DNA from: Cognaticolwellia mytili
GTDB taxonomy: Bacteria > Pseudomonadota > Gammaproteobacteria > Enterobacterales > Alteromonadaceae
Length of the DNA: 64,000 bases
Reading direction: 5' to 3'
Assembly (NCBI RefSeq): GCF_002104475.1
Contig: NZ_NBOF01000001.1
Coordinates: 248,001-312,000, forward strand
Positions 1,357 to 9,615 of this stretch are shown here, one piece after another; the first letter of the stretch is position 1; each line of letters begins with the position of its first letter. Made by a program: the position numbers and the translations under genes. The notes under the pieces were generated by a model. The model was given only the letters and a program-made list of their open reading frames with translations, was not told the DNA's origin and ran no database searches.

Positions 1357-2901
1357 ATGTTTAAAATTATTATTTTAGGCGGTGGTACCGCTGGTTGGAT
1401 GACCGCAAATTTAATGGCTAAGGCATGGCCACAAGATAACATTGAAATTACCTTAATTGAATCTCCAGCTATCGGCGTTATTGGCGTTGGCGAAGGTTCG
1501 ACACCACACTTACAATCATTTTTTAAGAAGATTGCTGTCAGTGAAGAGCAATGGATGCCAGCATGCAATGCGACTTATAAAAATGGTATAAGATTCGAAA
1601 ACTGGTCAACGAAAGTAGGTTTTGAATCCTATTTTCACCCTTTTACCTCATTAATCGACGCTCATACTGCACCAGCTTTTACTTACAATAGTCTTTTTAG
1701 ACGTCGTGGTTACAATGTCGACAGTCACCCTGACCGATTTTTCTTATCAACGGCTTTAGCGGCCAATCAACAGGTACCTATTGGAGATTACAATTTTCCT
1801 TTCGATATCGGATATGGCTATCACTTTGATGCAGTCTTACTAGGACAATTTCTGGCAAAAATAGCCACCAAAAATGGTGTTAACCGTATCCAGGCAACCG
1901 TCGATAGTGTTGAATTGAAAAAAAATAGTGCAGTAGAAAGTGCTATGGAAGATGGCGATATAAAAGCGCTAAGGCTTGATAATGGACAAAACATTACTGG
2001 CGATCTATTTATAGATTGCTCCGGCTTTAAAAGTATCTTATTGCAGGGTGCATTAAAAGTACCGTTTATCAGCTTTGACGATAATTTATTTAATGATAGT
2101 GCAGTAACTATTGCTATACCGAATGATGAATCAGCAACAAGTATCAATTCACAGACTATTTCTACCGCAATGAAATGTGGCTGGGCGTGGGATATTCCAC
2201 TAACAAATCGCACCGGTAATGGCTACGTTTATAGTTCAAAGTATTGCACTAAAGAAGCTGCAGAGCATGAACTTAGAGAAAAATTAGGTGCTAGTAGCGA
2301 AGGTATTCCCGCCAGACATATAGCGATGAAAGTAGGGCGAGTAGAGAAACATTGGTTTAAAAATTGTATCGCCATTGGCTTATCACAAGGCTTTATTGAA
2401 CCACTGGAAGCAACGGCGTTACATTTTGTACAAGAAACCATTGAGCAACTGATCGAAAATTTAACTAAGAATGCTTTTTCTTGCGCAGAGCAAAATTGTT
2501 TTAATGAAAGAATAAATGCTCGGTTTGAAGGCATACGAGACTATATTGTTGCGCATTACCGCTTAAGTTCTCGTGAAGACAGTCAATACTGGCGCGACAA
2601 TAGCGTTAACCCCAACATATCAGACAATCTTAAGCGTATTGTCCAGTCATGGGTTAAAGGCGAGGATCTTAATAAAACGCTAACCACGAGTGATATCGTG
2701 AGCTTTTATCCTCCAATATCATGGCATGCTATTCTAGCTGGTTATGGTGTCTTTCCTCCGCTAGCTAGTCAAAATGATGAAAATTCAAGTGTTCACAAAT
2801 ATGACTTGGCCCATATAGATCAATTTATTGAGCGCAGTCGCAGTAACTTTCAAGATCACTATGCATTCATAAAAACAAGAGAGTGTGCAGATGAAAAATA
2901 A
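1357..2901 (+). CDS. Flavin-dependent tryptophan halogenase-family protein
   Basis: A 514-residue protein of the PrnA/RebH family. These enzymes use FADH2, O2 and halide to form HOCl/HOBr, which reaches the substrate by way of an active-site lysine. The FAD motif GGGTAGW is at residues 8-14. K75 in 'NATYKNGIRF' lines up with the catalytic lysine (PrnA K79). The family motif WxWxIP appears as 'GWAWDIPL'. There is no signal peptide, so it acts in the cytoplasm. The stop codon overlaps the next gene. A flavin reductase partner is not nearby. Homologues beside TonB receptors in marine bacteria mostly have unknown substrates, so free tryptophan should not be assumed. Confidence 0.9.
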   Translation: MFKIIILGGGTAGWMTANLMAKAWPQDNIEITLIESPAIGVIGVGEGSTPHLQSFFKKIAVSEEQWMPACNATYKNGIRFENWSTKVGFESYFHPFTSLIDAHTAPAFTYNSLFRRRGYNVDSHPDRFFLSTALAANQQVPIGDYNFPFDIGYGYHFDAVLLGQFLAKIATKNGVNRIQATVDSVELKKNSAVESAMEDGDIKALRLDNGQNITGDLFIDCSGFKSILLQGALKVPFISFDDNLFNDSAVTIAIPNDESATSINSQTISTAMKCGWAWDIPLTNRTGNGYVYSSKYCTKEAAEHELREKLGASSEGIPARHIAMKVGRVEKHWFKNCIAIGLSQGFIEPLEATALHFVQETIEQLIENLTKNAFSCAEQNCFNERINARFEGIRDYIVAHYRLSSREDSQYWRDNSVNPNISDNLKRIVQSWVKGEDLNKTLTTSDIVSFYPPISWHAILAGYGVFPPLASQNDENSSVHKYDLAHIDQFIERSRSNFQDHYAFIKTRECADEK

Positions 2902-4588
2902 CCATATTAAAAATATCATTACACTTTGTGTATTAAGCGCTTTAACCGCTTGTGGTGGCTCGGGTGGTAAATCTACTACTCAGGTCACGCCAACACCGCC
3001 TCCTGTTGTGGTAACGCCAACTGGCCCGCAAGTCACCGGCGTTTCGGTGATTATAAGCCAAGCAGACGCGATAAATGATAGCAGCCATCAATGTCATGCG
3101 AGCAACAGTAATGAGAGTGGCGTACAATTTTCTGAAGTCTCTCTGCAAGCCGGGATTGATTTTAGTCACCAGCACGTTAACGGTGATGGTATTTTGGGCA
3201 TGTCAGGTGGTGTTGCTTCAGGCGATTTTGACGGTGATGGTTTTGTCGATTTATATACTTTAGGTGGCGATGCTGGAAGTAATCGATTATACAAAAATAA
3301 AGGTGATGGTAGTTTTGAAGATGTTACTGAATTTTCAGAATTGTCATTAACAGCGAAAAGTAGTGGTCCTGCATTCGGTGACTTTAACGGCGATGGCTTA
3401 CTCGATTTATTTGTCGGTAGCGTTGGCGGAGATGACGCTAAATTGTATTTAAATCAAGGTAATGAAAAGTTTTTAGATATTACTGACAGCTCTGGTTTAG
3501 ATTTACCAGGTAATAATTTTACCGGCACTTGGTCTGATTACGATAAAGATGGTGATTTGGACATTTTTATTACCCATTGGACTGATGATAAAAATGAATA
3601 TTATGCTTATTTTTGGCGCAATAATGGTGACTTGACCTTTACTGATGTTAGTTTTGAAGCAGGCATAAATAAACTAGGTCAACAAGACAAAACCTTCACG
3701 CCGTCATTTGCTGATATCGACAACGATGGCTGGCAAGACCTGTTATTAGTTGCTGATAACAGCCAGACTCGAGTTTTTCACAATAATGGCGATGGCTCTT
3801 TTAAAGATATAACCGATCAAAATGTGATCACAGACAATTCAGGCATGGGCTCTGCCATTGGCGATTATGACAATGATGGCGACCTTGATTGGTTTGTTAC
3901 CGCGATTTCTTACAAAGATGGTGTTGAACATTTCGGTTGGTTAACACCGGGTAATCGCTTTTATCAGAATCAAGGCGATGGCAGTTTTATTGATAAAACT
4001 GACGAAACTGGCGTACGTCATGGTTATTGGGGCTGGGCGACTTGCTTTAATGATTTTGATAACGACGGTTTTCTCGACTTGTTCCATGTTAATGGCATGT
4101 TTGGCGACAATATAGACGAGCAATTTGCGACCGATCCATCAAGGTTATTTATGTCTAATGGTGATGGCACGTTTACTGAGTCAGCGGTTGCATCAGGCAT
4201 TGATGATCAAGGCATGGGGCGTGGAATTGTCTGTTTTGATTACGATCGTGATGGTGATCAAGATTTATTTGTTGCCAATTATGGCCAAGCGCCAAAACTT
4301 TATTGTAATCATGGCAACACCAATAACTTCATCAATATAAAATTAATTGAAAAGTCAGCGAACAATCAAGCATTGGGTGCCAGAATTTACCTAAAAACCT
4401 CAACCATGGAACAAATGCGAGAATTACGTTCGGGTAATAATTATACCTCTCAAAATCCAGTTGAGGCGCACTTTGGCTTAGCATCGAATGACGCCATAGA
4501 ACAAGTGCGTATAGTTTGGCCTGATGGTAACGAAACTATTGTAACACAAGTCGATATTAATCAGTTTTTGACAATCGAGCGCAGCTAG
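2891..4588 (+). CDS. CRTAC1-like lipoprotein with VCBS/FG-GAP repeats and ASPIC/UnbV domain
   Basis: The ATG at 2891 is preferred to an in-frame GTG at 2885, because an AAGAGAG ribosome site lies 7 nt upstream; it overlaps the halogenase end by 11 bp, so translation is probably coupled. The 565-residue product starts with a lipoprotein signal (LTAC, Cys21) and a Gly/Pro/Thr linker. It then carries about seven calcium-loop repeats of the DxDxDGxxDLF type (for example DFDGDGFVDLY, DYDNDGDLDWF), which build a beta-propeller. The last ~90 residues match the ASPIC/UnbV domain ('GARIYLKT...RIVWPDGNE'). It is likely on the cell surface or in the periplasm. This family has no settled biochemical role. 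Confidence 0.9.
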   Translation: MKNNHIKNIITLCVLSALTACGGSGGKSTTQVTPTPPPVVVTPTGPQVTGVSVIISQADAINDSSHQCHASNSNESGVQFSEVSLQAGIDFSHQHVNGDGILGMSGGVASGDFDGDGFVDLYTLGGDAGSNRLYKNKGDGSFEDVTEFSELSLTAKSSGPAFGDFNGDGLLDLFVGSVGGDDAKLYLNQGNEKFLDITDSSGLDLPGNNFTGTWSDYDKDGDLDIFITHWTDDKNEYYAYFWRNNGDLTFTDVSFEAGINKLGQQDKTFTPSFADIDNDGWQDLLLVADNSQTRVFHNNGDGSFKDITDQNVITDNSGMGSAIGDYDNDGDLDWFVTAISYKDGVEHFGWLTPGNRFYQNQGDGSFIDKTDETGVRHGYWGWATCFNDFDNDGFLDLFHVNGMFGDNIDEQFATDPSRLFMSNGDGTFTESAVASGIDDQGMGRGIVCFDYDRDGDQDLFVANYGQAPKLYCNHGNTNNFINIKLIEKSANNQALGARIYLKTSTMEQMRELRSGNNYTSQNPVEAHFGLASNDAIEQVRIVWPDGNETIVTQVDINQFLTIERS

Positions 4589-4657
4589 TATTGTGTTATT
4601 GGTGTAAATTTATAACTAGGGGAAACACTAAGAAGTTATTTTTTAGTGTGTTGTATT

Positions 4658-6652
4658 ATGAACAGTACAAAAAATTACTATAAAAAATCGATATTCACCA
4701 CCACACTGACTTCGTTGTTACTCGTCGCATGTGGTGGTGGCAGTGACAGTAAACCGACGGTTGTCCCTGAACCGCCGATTGTTGAGGTAATATTAACGCC
4801 TGAGCGCAGTGGCTACTCGGTTGCACGCCAATGGAATAATGTGCTGCTTGAGGCGATACGAAATGATTATGCAAGACCGACAGTGCATGCACGTAACCTA
4901 TTTCACATCTCTGCTGCTATGTATGACAGCTGGGCAGTATTTGATACCAGCAGCCATCACTATTTGTTTAGCCAAACATTGAATGACTACAGTTGTAATG
5001 CAGAAGGTATCACGATACCTGCTGATACATTACCAGAACAAGAGCGAGCACTAAGTTATGCAAGTTATCGCTTGCTTGAACATCGTTTTCGTTTAGCGCC
5101 AGGCGTAGATACCATTATGGCCTCTGCGAATAAGTTAATGACAGAGCTAGGTTTTGATATTAACGAGGAAAGTCAGGACTATAAACAAGACGGTTCGGCA
5201 GCATTGGGTAATTATATCGCCAATTGTTATATCGAATATGGTCTCCAAGATGGTGCCAATGAACGTCAATTCTACGCAAATCAATACTATCAACCGGTAA
5301 ATCCGCCGTTAGTGTTAAGTAATGAAACCGCGGGTAATCCTGATATTGTTAATCTTAATCGTTGGCAGCCACTGTCAATTGCAGGTTACATTGACCAAGC
5401 AGGTAACCCTGTCGATGAAGCGCCAAGTTTTTTGAGTCCTGAGTGGGGTAATGTTAAGCCTTTCTCTTTATCCGAAAATGACAAAAGCATTTTCTTAAGG
5501 TCGGGTAATGAATACCAAGTCTATCATGATCCTGGTATGCCACCGTTGATAGATAACGAGCTTAGCGAAGAGTATAAATGGGGCTTTGCTACCGTTGCCA
5601 TTTGGTCTGCACACCTAGATCAAACAGATGGGGTTATGTGGGATATATCACCAAAAAACTTAGGTAATATTACCAGCTTGCCAAGCAGTTTCGAAGACTA
5701 CCGCCAGTTTTATCAACAATTTTCTGGTGGTGATACTAGCACTGGTTATACTGTCAATCCCGCCACTAATGAACCTTATCAAGAGCAACTAGTTCCTCGC
5801 GGTGATTATGGCCGTGTTTTAGCTGAATTTTGGGCGGATGGCCCCGATTCAGAAACACCGCCAGGTCACTGGTTTGTTATCCTAAATAGCGTTAGTGATC
5901 ATCCTCAATTGGAAAAACGCTGGCAAGGCGAAGGAGAGACTCTAGGTAACCTTGAATGGGATGTAAAGTCTTATTTTGCGATGGGTGGTACGATGCACGA
6001 TGCAGCAATTTCTGCTTGGAGTATCAAAGGACGCTATGATTACATCCGTCCTGTATCAGCTATTCGAGCAATGGCTGATTTAGGGCAAAGTAGTGATTTA
6101 TTGTTACCGTCTTATCATAAAAATGGCATAACGTTAGTCGACAACTATATTGAATTAGTGAAACAAGGAGATGCATTAGCAGGAGCTAATGGCGAAAATA
6201 TTGACAAAATTAAGCTCTATAGTTGGAAAGGCCCAAGTTATATTGATAACCCTGAAGTGGAACAAGCCGGAGTTGGTTGGATTTTGGCAGAAAATTGGTG
6301 GCCGTATCAACGACCATCATTCGTTACTCCTCCTTTTGCTGGTTATGTTTCTGGGCACTCTACTTATTCTCGAGCAGCCGCAGAATTAATGACTAGAATG
6401 ACAGGAGATGCTTATTTTCCAGGTGGCATGAGTGAGTTTAAAGTAACGGCAAACGAATTCTTGGTTTTTGAACAAGGGCCTAGTGTTGATATGACATTAC
6501 AATGGGCGACATATCGTGATGCGTCTGATCAATGTAGTCTTTCTCGCATTTGGGGCGGAATACATCCCCCTGTAGATGATATTCCCGGTAGGCTCATTGG
6601 CGAAAAAATTGGCAAGAATAGTTTTGAGTTTATTCAAGGTTTTATTGAATAA
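4658..6652 (+). CDS. Vanadium-dependent haloperoxidase / PAP2-family lipoprotein
   Basis: Start taken at ATG 4658, since a GTG four codons earlier has no better ribosome site. The 664-residue product has a lipoprotein signal ending LLVAC-GGGS. The C-terminal third carries the complete PAP2/vanadium chloroperoxidase signature: K457-x6-R464-P465, then S565-G566-H567 (here VSGHS), then S629-R630-x5-H636-x3-D640. In vanadium haloperoxidases these residues bind vanadate and hold the axial histidine; in acid phosphatases they bind phosphate. The length and the large all-helical N-terminal part fit the haloperoxidase branch. Peroxidase activity is inferred from the family, and a phosphatase role is possible. 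It lies 69 bp after the VCBS lipoprotein, probably in the same transcript as the halogenase. Confidence 0.85.
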   Translation: MNSTKNYYKKSIFTTTLTSLLLVACGGGSDSKPTVVPEPPIVEVILTPERSGYSVARQWNNVLLEAIRNDYARPTVHARNLFHISAAMYDSWAVFDTSSHHYLFSQTLNDYSCNAEGITIPADTLPEQERALSYASYRLLEHRFRLAPGVDTIMASANKLMTELGFDINEESQDYKQDGSAALGNYIANCYIEYGLQDGANERQFYANQYYQPVNPPLVLSNETAGNPDIVNLNRWQPLSIAGYIDQAGNPVDEAPSFLSPEWGNVKPFSLSENDKSIFLRSGNEYQVYHDPGMPPLIDNELSEEYKWGFATVAIWSAHLDQTDGVMWDISPKNLGNITSLPSSFEDYRQFYQQFSGGDTSTGYTVNPATNEPYQEQLVPRGDYGRVLAEFWADGPDSETPPGHWFVILNSVSDHPQLEKRWQGEGETLGNLEWDVKSYFAMGGTMHDAAISAWSIKGRYDYIRPVSAIRAMADLGQSSDLLLPSYHKNGITLVDNYIELVKQGDALAGANGENIDKIKLYSWKGPSYIDNPEVEQAGVGWILAENWWPYQRPSFVTPPFAGYVSGHSTYSRAAAELMTRMTGDAYFPGGMSEFKVTANEFLVFEQGPSVDMTLQWATYRDASDQCSLSRIWGGIHPPVDDIPGRLIGEKIGKNSFEFIQGFIE

Positions 6653-6721
6653 TAGTGATTTTTGCAAGCTGGTTGCTCAAAGGGCCGTTTGTAACCAAGT
6701 GTATAGTGAAAAATAAGGTTA

Positions 6722-7642
6722 ATGATGAAAAAAGTATCAATCGGTAACACTAATATTGAATCATCTCGATTCATATACGGTTGTATGCGTATTGCTGGTG
6801 ATAATAGCGCAGAAGATCGTAGTAAAGGTAAGCGTGCAATAATGGCAGCCTTAGAATCTGGTTATAATCACTTTGATCATGCTGATATTTACGGTGGTGG
6901 CACGTGTGAAAGCCTTTTTGGCGAAGTGTTAGCAGAAAGCCCACAGCTACGCGAGAAAATTATTCTTACCTCTAAAGCAGGAATTCGTCCTCGAAATAGT
7001 GATGACGCTTATGCACCAACACGTTATGACTTTAGTCAGCAGTATTTATTAGCAAGTGTTGAAGCTTCCCTTAAACGCTTAAATACCGACTATTTGGATA
7101 TGTTTTTGTTGCACCGTCCAGATTATTTATTCGATGTGCATGATGTCGCTGAAACCTTTGCACTATTAAAAGCTAGTGGTAAAGTTAAGCACTTTGGGGT
7201 GAGTAATTTCAAACCGTCGCAAGTTGAATTACTAAAATCATCGGTTTCAATGCCATTATTGGTTAATCAAGTAGAAATCAATATTCACAATATTGATACT
7301 TTGCTTGATGGAACGTTGGATCAATGCCAGCAATACGGCATAACACCAATTGCTTGGTGTCCTTTAGGTGGTGTTGTTTATTCGGCTTGGGGTAATACGT
7401 TTGCTGTTGAAGATGAACAGCGTATCGAAAGCGAATTAGCGAAGCAAAGTGAAAAGTATGGCTGTGCGCCTTGGCAAGTTATCCTAGCTTGGTTGTTAAA
7501 GCATCCAGCAGGCATCTGTCCAATTATTGGTTCAACAACACCTGAGCGTATTGTGGCGGCTAAATTGGCATTAACGCTAGATTATTCTCGTGAAGATTGG
7601 TATCGCCTGCTAGAAGCAAGAAATGGTCAGCAAGTCCCATAA
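6722..7642 (+). CDS. Aldo/keto reductase (YdhF-like)
   Basis: A 306-residue NADPH-dependent oxidoreductase of the AKR fold. The catalytic tetrad is visible as D52, Y57 (FDHADIYGG), K85 (LTSKAG) and H131 (LLHRPD). The C-terminal cofactor loop 'CPIIGSTTPERI' is present. The closest type I recognise is E. coli YdhF (298 aa). AAGG lies 3 nt before the first of two tandem ATG codons. It follows the haloperoxidase by 69 bp on the same strand and could reduce an aldehyde or ketone made by the cluster, but that link rests only on position. Confidence 0.88.
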   Translation: MMKKVSIGNTNIESSRFIYGCMRIAGDNSAEDRSKGKRAIMAALESGYNHFDHADIYGGGTCESLFGEVLAESPQLREKIILTSKAGIRPRNSDDAYAPTRYDFSQQYLLASVEASLKRLNTDYLDMFLLHRPDYLFDVHDVAETFALLKASGKVKHFGVSNFKPSQVELLKSSVSMPLLVNQVEINIHNIDTLLDGTLDQCQQYGITPIAWCPLGGVVYSAWGNTFAVEDEQRIESELAKQSEKYGCAPWQVILAWLLKHPAGICPIIGSTTPERIVAAKLALTLDYSREDWYRLLEARNGQQVP

Positions 7643-7920: not shown

Positions 7921-8943
7921 ATGCCAAAACTAATTTTATCATTAGATGGAGGAGGGATTCGGGGAGCCGCGACTACGCAATTTCTCTCTAAGGTTGAAGA
8001 ACAATTACAACTTAACGATACAACCATTCGAGACTGTGTTGATTTCTATGCGGGCACAAGCACTGGCAGTATCATTGCCTTAGCACTTGCCACAACCAAT
8101 ATGAAAATGGCTGAGATTAACGAATTATATAATTATGACAATGGTCAGAAAATATTTACTGAAAATAAAGGTTGGTTCGAAATAGACGGCGTGAATGCAC
8201 CTAAATATGAAGGACAAAGTAAAACAGAATTGCTACAAGCTAAGTTTAAAGCAGCAAGAATTGATGATTTACCTAATAATAAACATGTTCTAGCAGTGAC
8301 TTATGCGATAGAGAAGCGCCGACCTATGATTATTAAATCGAGTAAAGCGGATTATCAGTCGCTGTATTCTTATCAAGTGGCTGATGCCTCAAGCGCCGCG
8401 CCAACCTATTTTCCAACTAAAGAGTTAGAGATGCCTCCTGAGATGGATGAGTCATGGCTAATTGACGGTGGTGTTATTGCGAATAACCCCACCATGTGTG
8501 CAATTGCTGAGGCTCGGCGGTGTTGGAAGGAAGAATCAATTAGTGATCTAAGAGTACTATCAATTGGCACTGGTTTTATGACGCGAAAAATTAATGGTCC
8601 AGCATCGAGAGGTTGGGGCGCATTACAATGGATGACGAAAGGGAAAATCCTCGACATTCTCAGTGATGAACGTGTGGTTGCCTATCAAGGGATTACACTG
8701 ATGGATCAAGGGACGTATATCCGAGTCAATGCCAAGCTTTTAGAACAACCAGGCCTACCAAACCCACCTGATGATGCTATGGATGATGTGAGTCGAACCA
8801 ATATTAAAAAATTAAAGGCATTAGGCGATTTTTGGTTTGAACAATACGGTGAAGCGGCGGTTCAGTTGTTATTAGGTGATTATAATGGCCCATCGCTCGA
8901 TCGTATTGACCCTAAAACGGGTAGGCCGATAGAGCATGGTTAA
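7921..8943 (+). CDS. Patatin-like phospholipase
   Basis: A 340-residue single-domain patatin. It has the oxyanion-hole motif DGGGIRG (residues 9-15), the nucleophile elbow GTSTG with S47, and the catalytic-aspartate motif DGG with D182 ('IDGGVIANNPT'). Patatins are Ser-Asp acyl hydrolases of membrane lipids. AAAGGA lies about 9 nt before the ATG. There is no signal peptide and no secretion partner. The length and the DGGGIRG start resemble CapV-type effectors as well as housekeeping lipases. No nucleotide cyclase or other defence gene is adjacent, so a general lipase role is the safer reading. Confidence 0.9.
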   Translation: MPKLILSLDGGGIRGAATTQFLSKVEEQLQLNDTTIRDCVDFYAGTSTGSIIALALATTNMKMAEINELYNYDNGQKIFTENKGWFEIDGVNAPKYEGQSKTELLQAKFKAARIDDLPNNKHVLAVTYAIEKRRPMIIKSSKADYQSLYSYQVADASSAAPTYFPTKELEMPPEMDESWLIDGGVIANNPTMCAIAEARRCWKEESISDLRVLSIGTGFMTRKINGPASRGWGALQWMTKGKILDILSDERVVAYQGITLMDQGTYIRVNAKLLEQPGLPNPPDDAMDDVSRTNIKKLKALGDFWFEQYGEAAVQLLLGDYNGPSLDRIDPKTGRPIEHG

Positions 8944-9255: not shown

Positions 9256-9615
9256 ATGTCAGCGAACTTAAAATTAAATTATGTTGAATTTCCAGCCTGT
9301 AATATTCCGGCAACAAAGCAGTTCTTCGAGCAGGCCTTTGGCTGGATATTTCAAGATTTTGGCCCTGAATACACAGCTTTTATTGGCCAAGGTTTAGACG
9401 GCGGCTTCTATCAATCAGAGCTTACATCTTTGGCCGCTGAAGGTTCGGCATTATTGGTACTTAAAAGTGATGACTTAGAAGGTACTCAAGCAATAGTAGA
9501 GTCTGCTGGAGGCAAAATATCTACCGCTATTTTTTCATTCCCTGGTGGTCGCCGTTTTCACTTTATTGAACCAAGTGGTAATGAATTTGCGGTGTGGATT
9601 ATAGAAAATACTTAA
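9256..9615 (+). CDS. VOC-family (glyoxalase/bleomycin-resistance fold) protein
   Basis: A 119-residue protein with the paired beta-alpha-beta-beta-beta units of the vicinal oxygen chelate fold. It opens 'NYVEFPACNIPATKQFFEQAFGW', typical of the glyoxalase-like group (CDD glyoxalase/dioxygenase type), and ends with 'FIEPSGNEFAVW', which carries the Glu of a metal site. Substrate unknown; members bind small electrophiles or antibiotics or act as dioxygenases. It is a single-gene transcript closed by a strong terminator. Confidence 0.85.
   Translation: MSANLKLNYVEFPACNIPATKQFFEQAFGWIFQDFGPEYTAFIGQGLDGGFYQSELTSLAAEGSALLVLKSDDLEGTQAIVESAGGKISTAIFSFPGGRRFHFIEPSGNEFAVWIIENT

Follow-up and report, generated by a model that had tools for sequence, protein, structure and literature searches.

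Two putative halogenation modules, one built on a TonB receptor and one exported, in an alpha-glucan-type uptake locus of Cognaticolwellia mytili

Two unrelated types of halogenase are encoded side by side in a 64,000-nucleotide stretch of the genome of Cognaticolwellia mytili (contig NZ_NBOF01000001.1, positions 248,001 to 312,000; hereafter the window), the host of which is probably a marine bacterium. Behind a TonB-dependent receptor (TBDR) stand a flavin-dependent halogenase (FDH), a lipoprotein with FG-GAP repeats and an ASPIC/UnbV domain (CRTAC), an exported lipoprotein of the vanadium-dependent haloperoxidase type (VHPO) and an aldo/keto reductase (AKR). Do these four genes serve one halogenation or dehalogenation pathway for an imported compound, as a sequence-only reading of the same DNA had proposed, or have separate systems come together here? 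The four open reading frames (ORFs) lie exactly where that reading had placed them, and FDH and CRTAC do overlap by 11 bp (2891-2901), provided that CRTAC begins at its ATG.

3-1235, + strand: TonB-dependent receptor, C-terminal part (TonB_dep_Rec_b-barrel, 7e-23; TIGR01782, 4e-81, yet under its cut-off)
1250-1275, + strand: terminator-like hairpin and T-run in the receptor/FDH gap (10-pair stem; consensus scan only)
1357-2901, + strand: FDH, flavin-dependent (tryptophan-type) halogenase, 514 aa (Pfam Trp_halogenase, 9.8e-128)
2891-4588, + strand: CRTAC, FG-GAP/ASPIC-UnbV lipoprotein (FG-GAP_3, 6e-49, seven stretches; UnbV_ASPIC, 3e-18)
4658-6652, + strand: VHPO, exported lipoprotein of the vanadium-dependent haloperoxidase type (Pfam VCPO_2nd and DUF6851)
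6722-7642, + strand: AKR, aldo/keto reductase (Pfam Aldo_ket_red, 4e-54)

Comparison with related loci points to two modules that have been joined more than once and in each of which the enzyme has a clear partner; a single pathway is not supported. Our preferred reading, to which we assign a probability of about 0.6, is that an alpha-glucan-type uptake locus bears two independent halogenation-type modules, namely receptor-FDH(-AKR) and an exported CRTAC-VHPO pair.

The strongest new result is that, judged from fusion and proximity, CRTAC and VHPO form one unit. A scan of named genomes gave at least 582 confirmed VHPO relatives, and the best 80 of these were kept as loci (three of them, L111, L112 and L128, appear to duplicate genomes G055, G031 and G456 of the other sample). 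CRTAC and VHPO are a single polypeptide at 33 of the 80 loci, CRTAC is at most two genes away at nine, neither holds at 37 and one locus has no intact ORF. CRTAC is the N-terminal part in all 33 fusions, of which at least one (L152) runs off its contig; 15 come from Bacteroidota and 18 from Pseudomonadota. On the CRTAC tree, which includes the window twice (L032 and L033), the fusion label must have changed six times or more. In a separate search of 196 genomes, including that of C. mytili, full-length VHPO relatives (55-69 % identity) were found in 11 places in ten other genomes, with CRTAC next to VHPO or one gene off in seven (in tandem, convergent or divergent order); two of the four places without CRTAC (L023 and L024) have contig ends near by. 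C. mytili itself has one VHPO and, at E 1e-20, one CRTAC. No VHPO was found in 16 congeners, two of which show short weak matches only; when the order was sampled more widely and evenly, three of 394 genomes, C. mytili among them, had the gene at E 1e-50. Searches of the open-licence PubMed Central literature for haloperoxidase together with UnbV, FG-GAP, VCBS or CRTAC1 gave no hit, and no title or listed abstract found by related searches names the pair.

The window CRTAC has seven DxDxDG calcium-type loops, beginning at residues 114-452 counted from the 2885 start, a C-terminal ASPIC/UnbV domain and a lipobox (judged by eye); its FG-GAP repeats and UnbV_ASPIC match in Pfam place it among the CRTAC1/ASPIC-UnbV proteins. 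Because type IX secretion system (T9SS) export tails are present on four of the four Bacteroidota proteins scanned, and lipoboxes (by eye) in 10 of 12 VHPO rows examined, the CRTAC-VHPO unit is most likely extracytoplasmic. Other arrangements were also observed: two CRTAC genes flank VHPO in L145 (6853-12762), a 1760-aa protein has two CRTAC parts ahead of VHPO in L131 (6566-11848), and VHPO is followed by MopE-type copper-binding motifs (five stretches) and a T9SS tail in one protein of L138 (1906-5022). The VHPOs of L030 (8270-10381) and L031 (1464-3575) have no lipobox and end in a hydrophobic/basic tail that may be an anchor of the GlyGly-CTERM type (by eye).

The partner of FDH appears to be the receptor. 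Flavin-dependent halogenases of the tryptophan type are marked by GxGxxG, WxWxIP and a catalytic Lys and Glu. The window FDH shows these motifs in an alignment of 43 FDHs and in the PDB alignment: GGGTAGW from residue 8, K75 and GWAWDIP from residue 275 are exactly where they had been reported, and K75, E351 (the second catalytic residue) and WxWxIP are conserved in 43 of 43 aligned FDHs, the window counted in. The best PDB sequence is 5lv9 (1.3e-99), and no export signal was seen on this FDH by eye. FDH matches at E 1e-20 occur in 122 of the 196 genomes. The C. mytili genome, in which 41 receptor plug domains score above cut-off, encodes five full-length FDHs (a 424-aa frame on C29, matched by PF04820 in two weak pieces, was excluded) in three arrays, each with a TonB receptor at its head. 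One array is that of the window; another is of the N-acetylglucosamine (GlcNAc) type (L223, with NagP-, NagA-, SIS-, NagK-, GH20- and SapC-like genes, by eye), and the third (L222) lies beside sugar-transporter-type genes (by eye).

Of the 30 best FDH loci, 17 have a receptor immediately ahead of the FDH or FDH pair (seven are the window and L034-L039, the other 10 belong to 23 loci counted on longer stretches), and in 27 a receptor is no more than five genes away, so that the tie is strong, not strict. Receptor and FDH protein distances correlate with r 0.92 over 21 directly adjacent pairs; only receptors of at least 600 aa, directly upstream and on the same strand, were used, L102 (a near copy of L101) and L033-L039 (places already represented by other loci, or short stretches) were omitted, and the L099 receptor is truncated by a contig end. 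For 14 pairs with AKR, r is 0.95 between FDH and receptor, 0.46 between FDH and AKR and 0.40 between receptor and AKR. Since AKR is likewise a direct neighbour of FDH in relatives, linkage alone does not readily explain the difference, and receptor and FDH appear to be inherited and exchanged together. Tandem FDH pairs were observed in L215, L216, L222 and L223; those of L215 and L216 comprise two FDH types (33-34 % and 47 % identical to the window FDH), and the L222 pair is 33 % and 54 % identical to a congener FDH. In eight FDH loci (L232, L233, L236, L240-L243 and L247) a gene of the same kind (338-357 aa, by eye) is directly upstream and the receptor is three genes away.

The surroundings of the cluster are those of sugar uptake. 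The whole receptor gene, which starts upstream of the window (L032), encodes 991 aa with a plug domain. A starch-binding-type lipoprotein and a pullulanase are encoded upstream in divergent orientation, with a GH97 enzyme further on, and these genes mark the locus as one of alpha-glucan type. The cluster thus adjoins a TonB receptor within such a locus, which makes the imported substrate of the earlier proposal plausible. A check for a natural-product cluster identified glycan-uptake genes as neighbours, no search aimed at biosynthetic clusters having been made. AKR orthologues (81-91 % identity) served as the locus anchor in 12 congeners, all of which were fetched. The order receptor-FDH-AKR is found in nine of the 12, a pullulanase adjoins in five within the fetched stretch, and in eight AKR is immediately followed by one and the same peptidase gene (U32-type, by eye), three of these eight being without receptor and FDH; none of the 12 AKR loci showed a match to CRTAC or VHPO. 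The congener receptors and FDHs are 27-31 % and 33-38 % identical to their counterparts in the window, which resemble those of G063 and G090 (64-68 %), and the best match of the C. mytili genome to the congener FDH of this locus (54 % identical) is located elsewhere. A conserved place is thus occupied by a different receptor-FDH pair, with CRTAC-VHPO between FDH and AKR. As a further local difference from the congeners, patatin-like (7921-8943) and glyoxalase-like (9256-9615) genes (by eye) separate AKR from the U32-type peptidase gene. Receptor, FDH and AKR without CRTAC or VHPO are also found in G063, G075 and G108. In G063 the halves stand apart, TBDR-FDH-AKR in L100 and VHPO-CRTAC-TBDR in L021. 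In L021 (43-2467), DUF6445, SapC and methyltransferase-like genes (only the last named by eye) are divergent to VHPO-CRTAC-TBDR; the L223 FDH array of C. mytili likewise has a SapC-like gene (by eye).

The neighbourhood survey called for by the sequence-only reading shows that the combination of the two modules does recur: FDH, CRTAC and VHPO occur together in two other named genomes, both in GlcNAc-type loci, but all four genes together were found in none of the relatives' loci examined. L142 (uncultured Paraglaciecola) has FDH-CRTAC-VHPO in the order of the window, followed by glucosamine-isomerase-type, NagK- and NagA-like genes, and in L113 (Psychrosphaera sp. F3M07) VHPO and CRTAC face FDH and receptor, with GH20, NagA-type amidohydrolase, NagK- and NagP-like genes as neighbours (names without a Pfam hit were assigned by eye in both loci). 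L088 and L089 have TBDR-FDH-CRTAC without VHPO in the fetched stretch, L089 beside GH20 and Nag-type genes. Where FDH and CRTAC are in tandem (in the window and in L088, L089 and L142), their spacing ranges from the 11-base overlap to a gap of 29 bases. The window FDH and CRTAC fall in clades other than those of L113, L142, L088 and L089. Descent of the three complete loci from a single cluster was tested with groups that had been chosen with the trees already in view: one FDH clade was rejected (p-AU 1e-6; 5e-4 with the two FDH-CRTAC loci added) and one VHPO clade weakly rejected (p-AU 0.036). Given the separate clades and the rejected single clade, FDH, CRTAC and VHPO have most likely been assembled at least twice.

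Is the VHPO-like protein a haloperoxidase at all? The vanadate ligand motif of vanadium haloperoxidases is K-x6-R, SGH and R-x5-H, and these ligands are common to VHPO and PAP2 phosphatases. All had been correctly located in the window protein (K457, R464, S565-G566-H567, R630, H636 and D640), which together with Pfam and the FDH motifs bears out the claim that both enzyme families are intact by sequence, and they are conserved in 87 of 87 aligned VHPO rows, the window counted in (R630 in 86, the remaining row having an unreadable X there). The protein might thus be a phosphatase or a non-halogenating enzyme resembling NapH3 (8cxl), which ranks among the best fold matches. However, a confident AlphaFold model from the 87-sequence alignment, superseding a poor run from 12 sequences (pLDDT 48.7), agrees with the VHPO fold, and the fold search gave a whole-length match to chloro- and iodoperoxidases that scores far above phosphatases. 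Pfam finds the VCPO-type second helical bundle. The predicted fold is the double helical bundle typical of chloroperoxidase-class enzymes, and the protein is not a small, single-bundle PAP2 acid phosphatase sharing the core only. We therefore regard a phosphatase or NapH3-like function as unlikely.

As for the locus as a whole, one pathway of halogenation, dehalogenation or quorum quenching would agree with four genes that are close and co-directional, with the overlap of FDH and CRTAC, and with the recurrence of FDH-CRTAC-VHPO in the same order (L142) or another arrangement (L113). It is very improbable, since FDH, which lacks a signal, and the exported VHPO belong to different compartments (by eye), the identified neighbours are glycan-uptake genes and each half occurs alone in relatives: AKR accompanies receptor and FDH without CRTAC or VHPO in the nine congeners and in G063, G075 and G108, and CRTAC is near VHPO in the seven of 11 places with no FDH within the fetched stretches. 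Alternatively, CRTAC-VHPO could be a general secreted device for peroxide/hypohalite defence or signal quenching that landed here by chance, unrelated to receptor and FDH. FDH adjoins VHPO in only 2 of 79 VHPO loci, the neighbour genes of VHPO relatives are very diverse and the region departs from congeners in further genes (the patatin-like and glyoxalase-like ones), all of which would suit a chance landing. TonB receptors are nevertheless the commonest VHPO neighbour family (9/59 in a mostly Pseudomonadota set and 3/70 in an Alteromonadales-type set), although not in Bacteroidota, where a Pfam tally of 70 neighbours showed no dominant partner; these sets were hand-picked from lists of 95, 83 and 157, respectively, all lacking ORFs of more than 1300 aa and the 83-list also CRTACs. 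In addition, FDH adjacency in two other named genomes compares with 0.09 expected in 18 VHPO loci excluding the window (P ~0.004, an order of magnitude that assumes 5 FDHs per 4000 genes, with two strains of one species among the 18). We consider a chance landing rather unlikely.

Two independent modules thus remain our preferred reading. Module 1 would consist of the TonB receptor and its matched cytoplasmic FDH, followed by AKR, and module 2, which here lies between FDH and AKR, would be the exported CRTAC-VHPO pair acting as one unit. Because of the fold, the ligands, the fusions and the export signals, we propose an outer-membrane VHPO-CRTAC haloperoxidase, in which the calcium-type propeller of CRTAC would hold or position VHPO, or its target, beside the receptor, and VHPO would oxidise sea-water halide with H2O2 to hypohalous acid. 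FDH would act separately in the cytoplasm on something linked to the receptor or its ligand, perhaps a glycan; FDH and VHPO would not act in sequence but as separate add-ons to sugar uptake. The purpose of the surface unit may be oxidative chemistry where the glycan is taken up, whether to dispose of peroxide, to damage competitors or to attack the glycan itself.

Several observations weigh against this proposal. None of the ORFs read could be recognised as an oxidase that makes H2O2, no search aimed at one having been made. CRTAC is not obligatory, since 37 of the 80 VHPO relatives are unfused with none within two genes (some contigs end close by), and it is found without VHPO too, behind TonB receptors or FDH. 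The receptor is not directly in front in 13 of the 30 FDH loci and not within five genes in three. The r of 0.92 is restricted to directly adjacent pairs; FDH-AKR (p 0.016) and receptor-AKR (p 0.012) distances correlate too, neighbouring genes often travel together and AKR is the sole control. Linkage of the two modules is rare, and other chemistry is known among VHPO homologues (title of 8cxl, NapH3).

FDHs of this group are widespread, yet the natural substrate is doubted even for the studied BrvH (PMC5945002). If FDH is inherited to match the receptor, the search for its substrate would narrow to that receptor or the ligand. In the CRTAC-VHPO fusion, a large family of exported haloperoxidases, spread over several phyla, gains a partner that can be tested. 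A broader generalization, which we hold to be rather doubtful, is that orphan FDHs of glycan-uptake loci act on their own TonB receptor or its ligand and that CRTAC-VHPO is a surface haloperoxidase machine repeatedly recruited to the same receptors; if true, glycan uptake in marine bacteria would be accompanied by halogen chemistry that is matched between the inside and the outside.

Among known systems, the window FDH shares the Trp_halogenase family and the catalytic K and E with the orphan BrvH-type halogenases (6frl) and the PDB 'tryptophan halogenases', but its closest solved sequence is 5lv9, and the receptor-adjacent FDHs described here co-diverge with their receptor. The BrvH paper reports an adjoining second FDH gene (a tandem pair, 42.7 % identical), doubts indole as the natural substrate and does not contain the term TonB (PMC5945002). 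CRTAC resembles the CRTAC1/ASPIC-UnbV FG-GAP propeller proteins in its repeats, seven DxDxDG loops and UnbV domain, and differs in being paired with or fused to a haloperoxidase. VHPO shares the fold over ~387-435 residues and every vanadate ligand with bacterial vanadium-dependent haloperoxidases (3w35, XhnO11 9l8x and the Zobellia-type iodoperoxidase 4cit), at 21-26 % identity across the structural alignment; unlike these, its family is lipoprotein, T9SS-exported or CRTAC-fused, and here it stands inside an alpha-glucan-type uptake locus.

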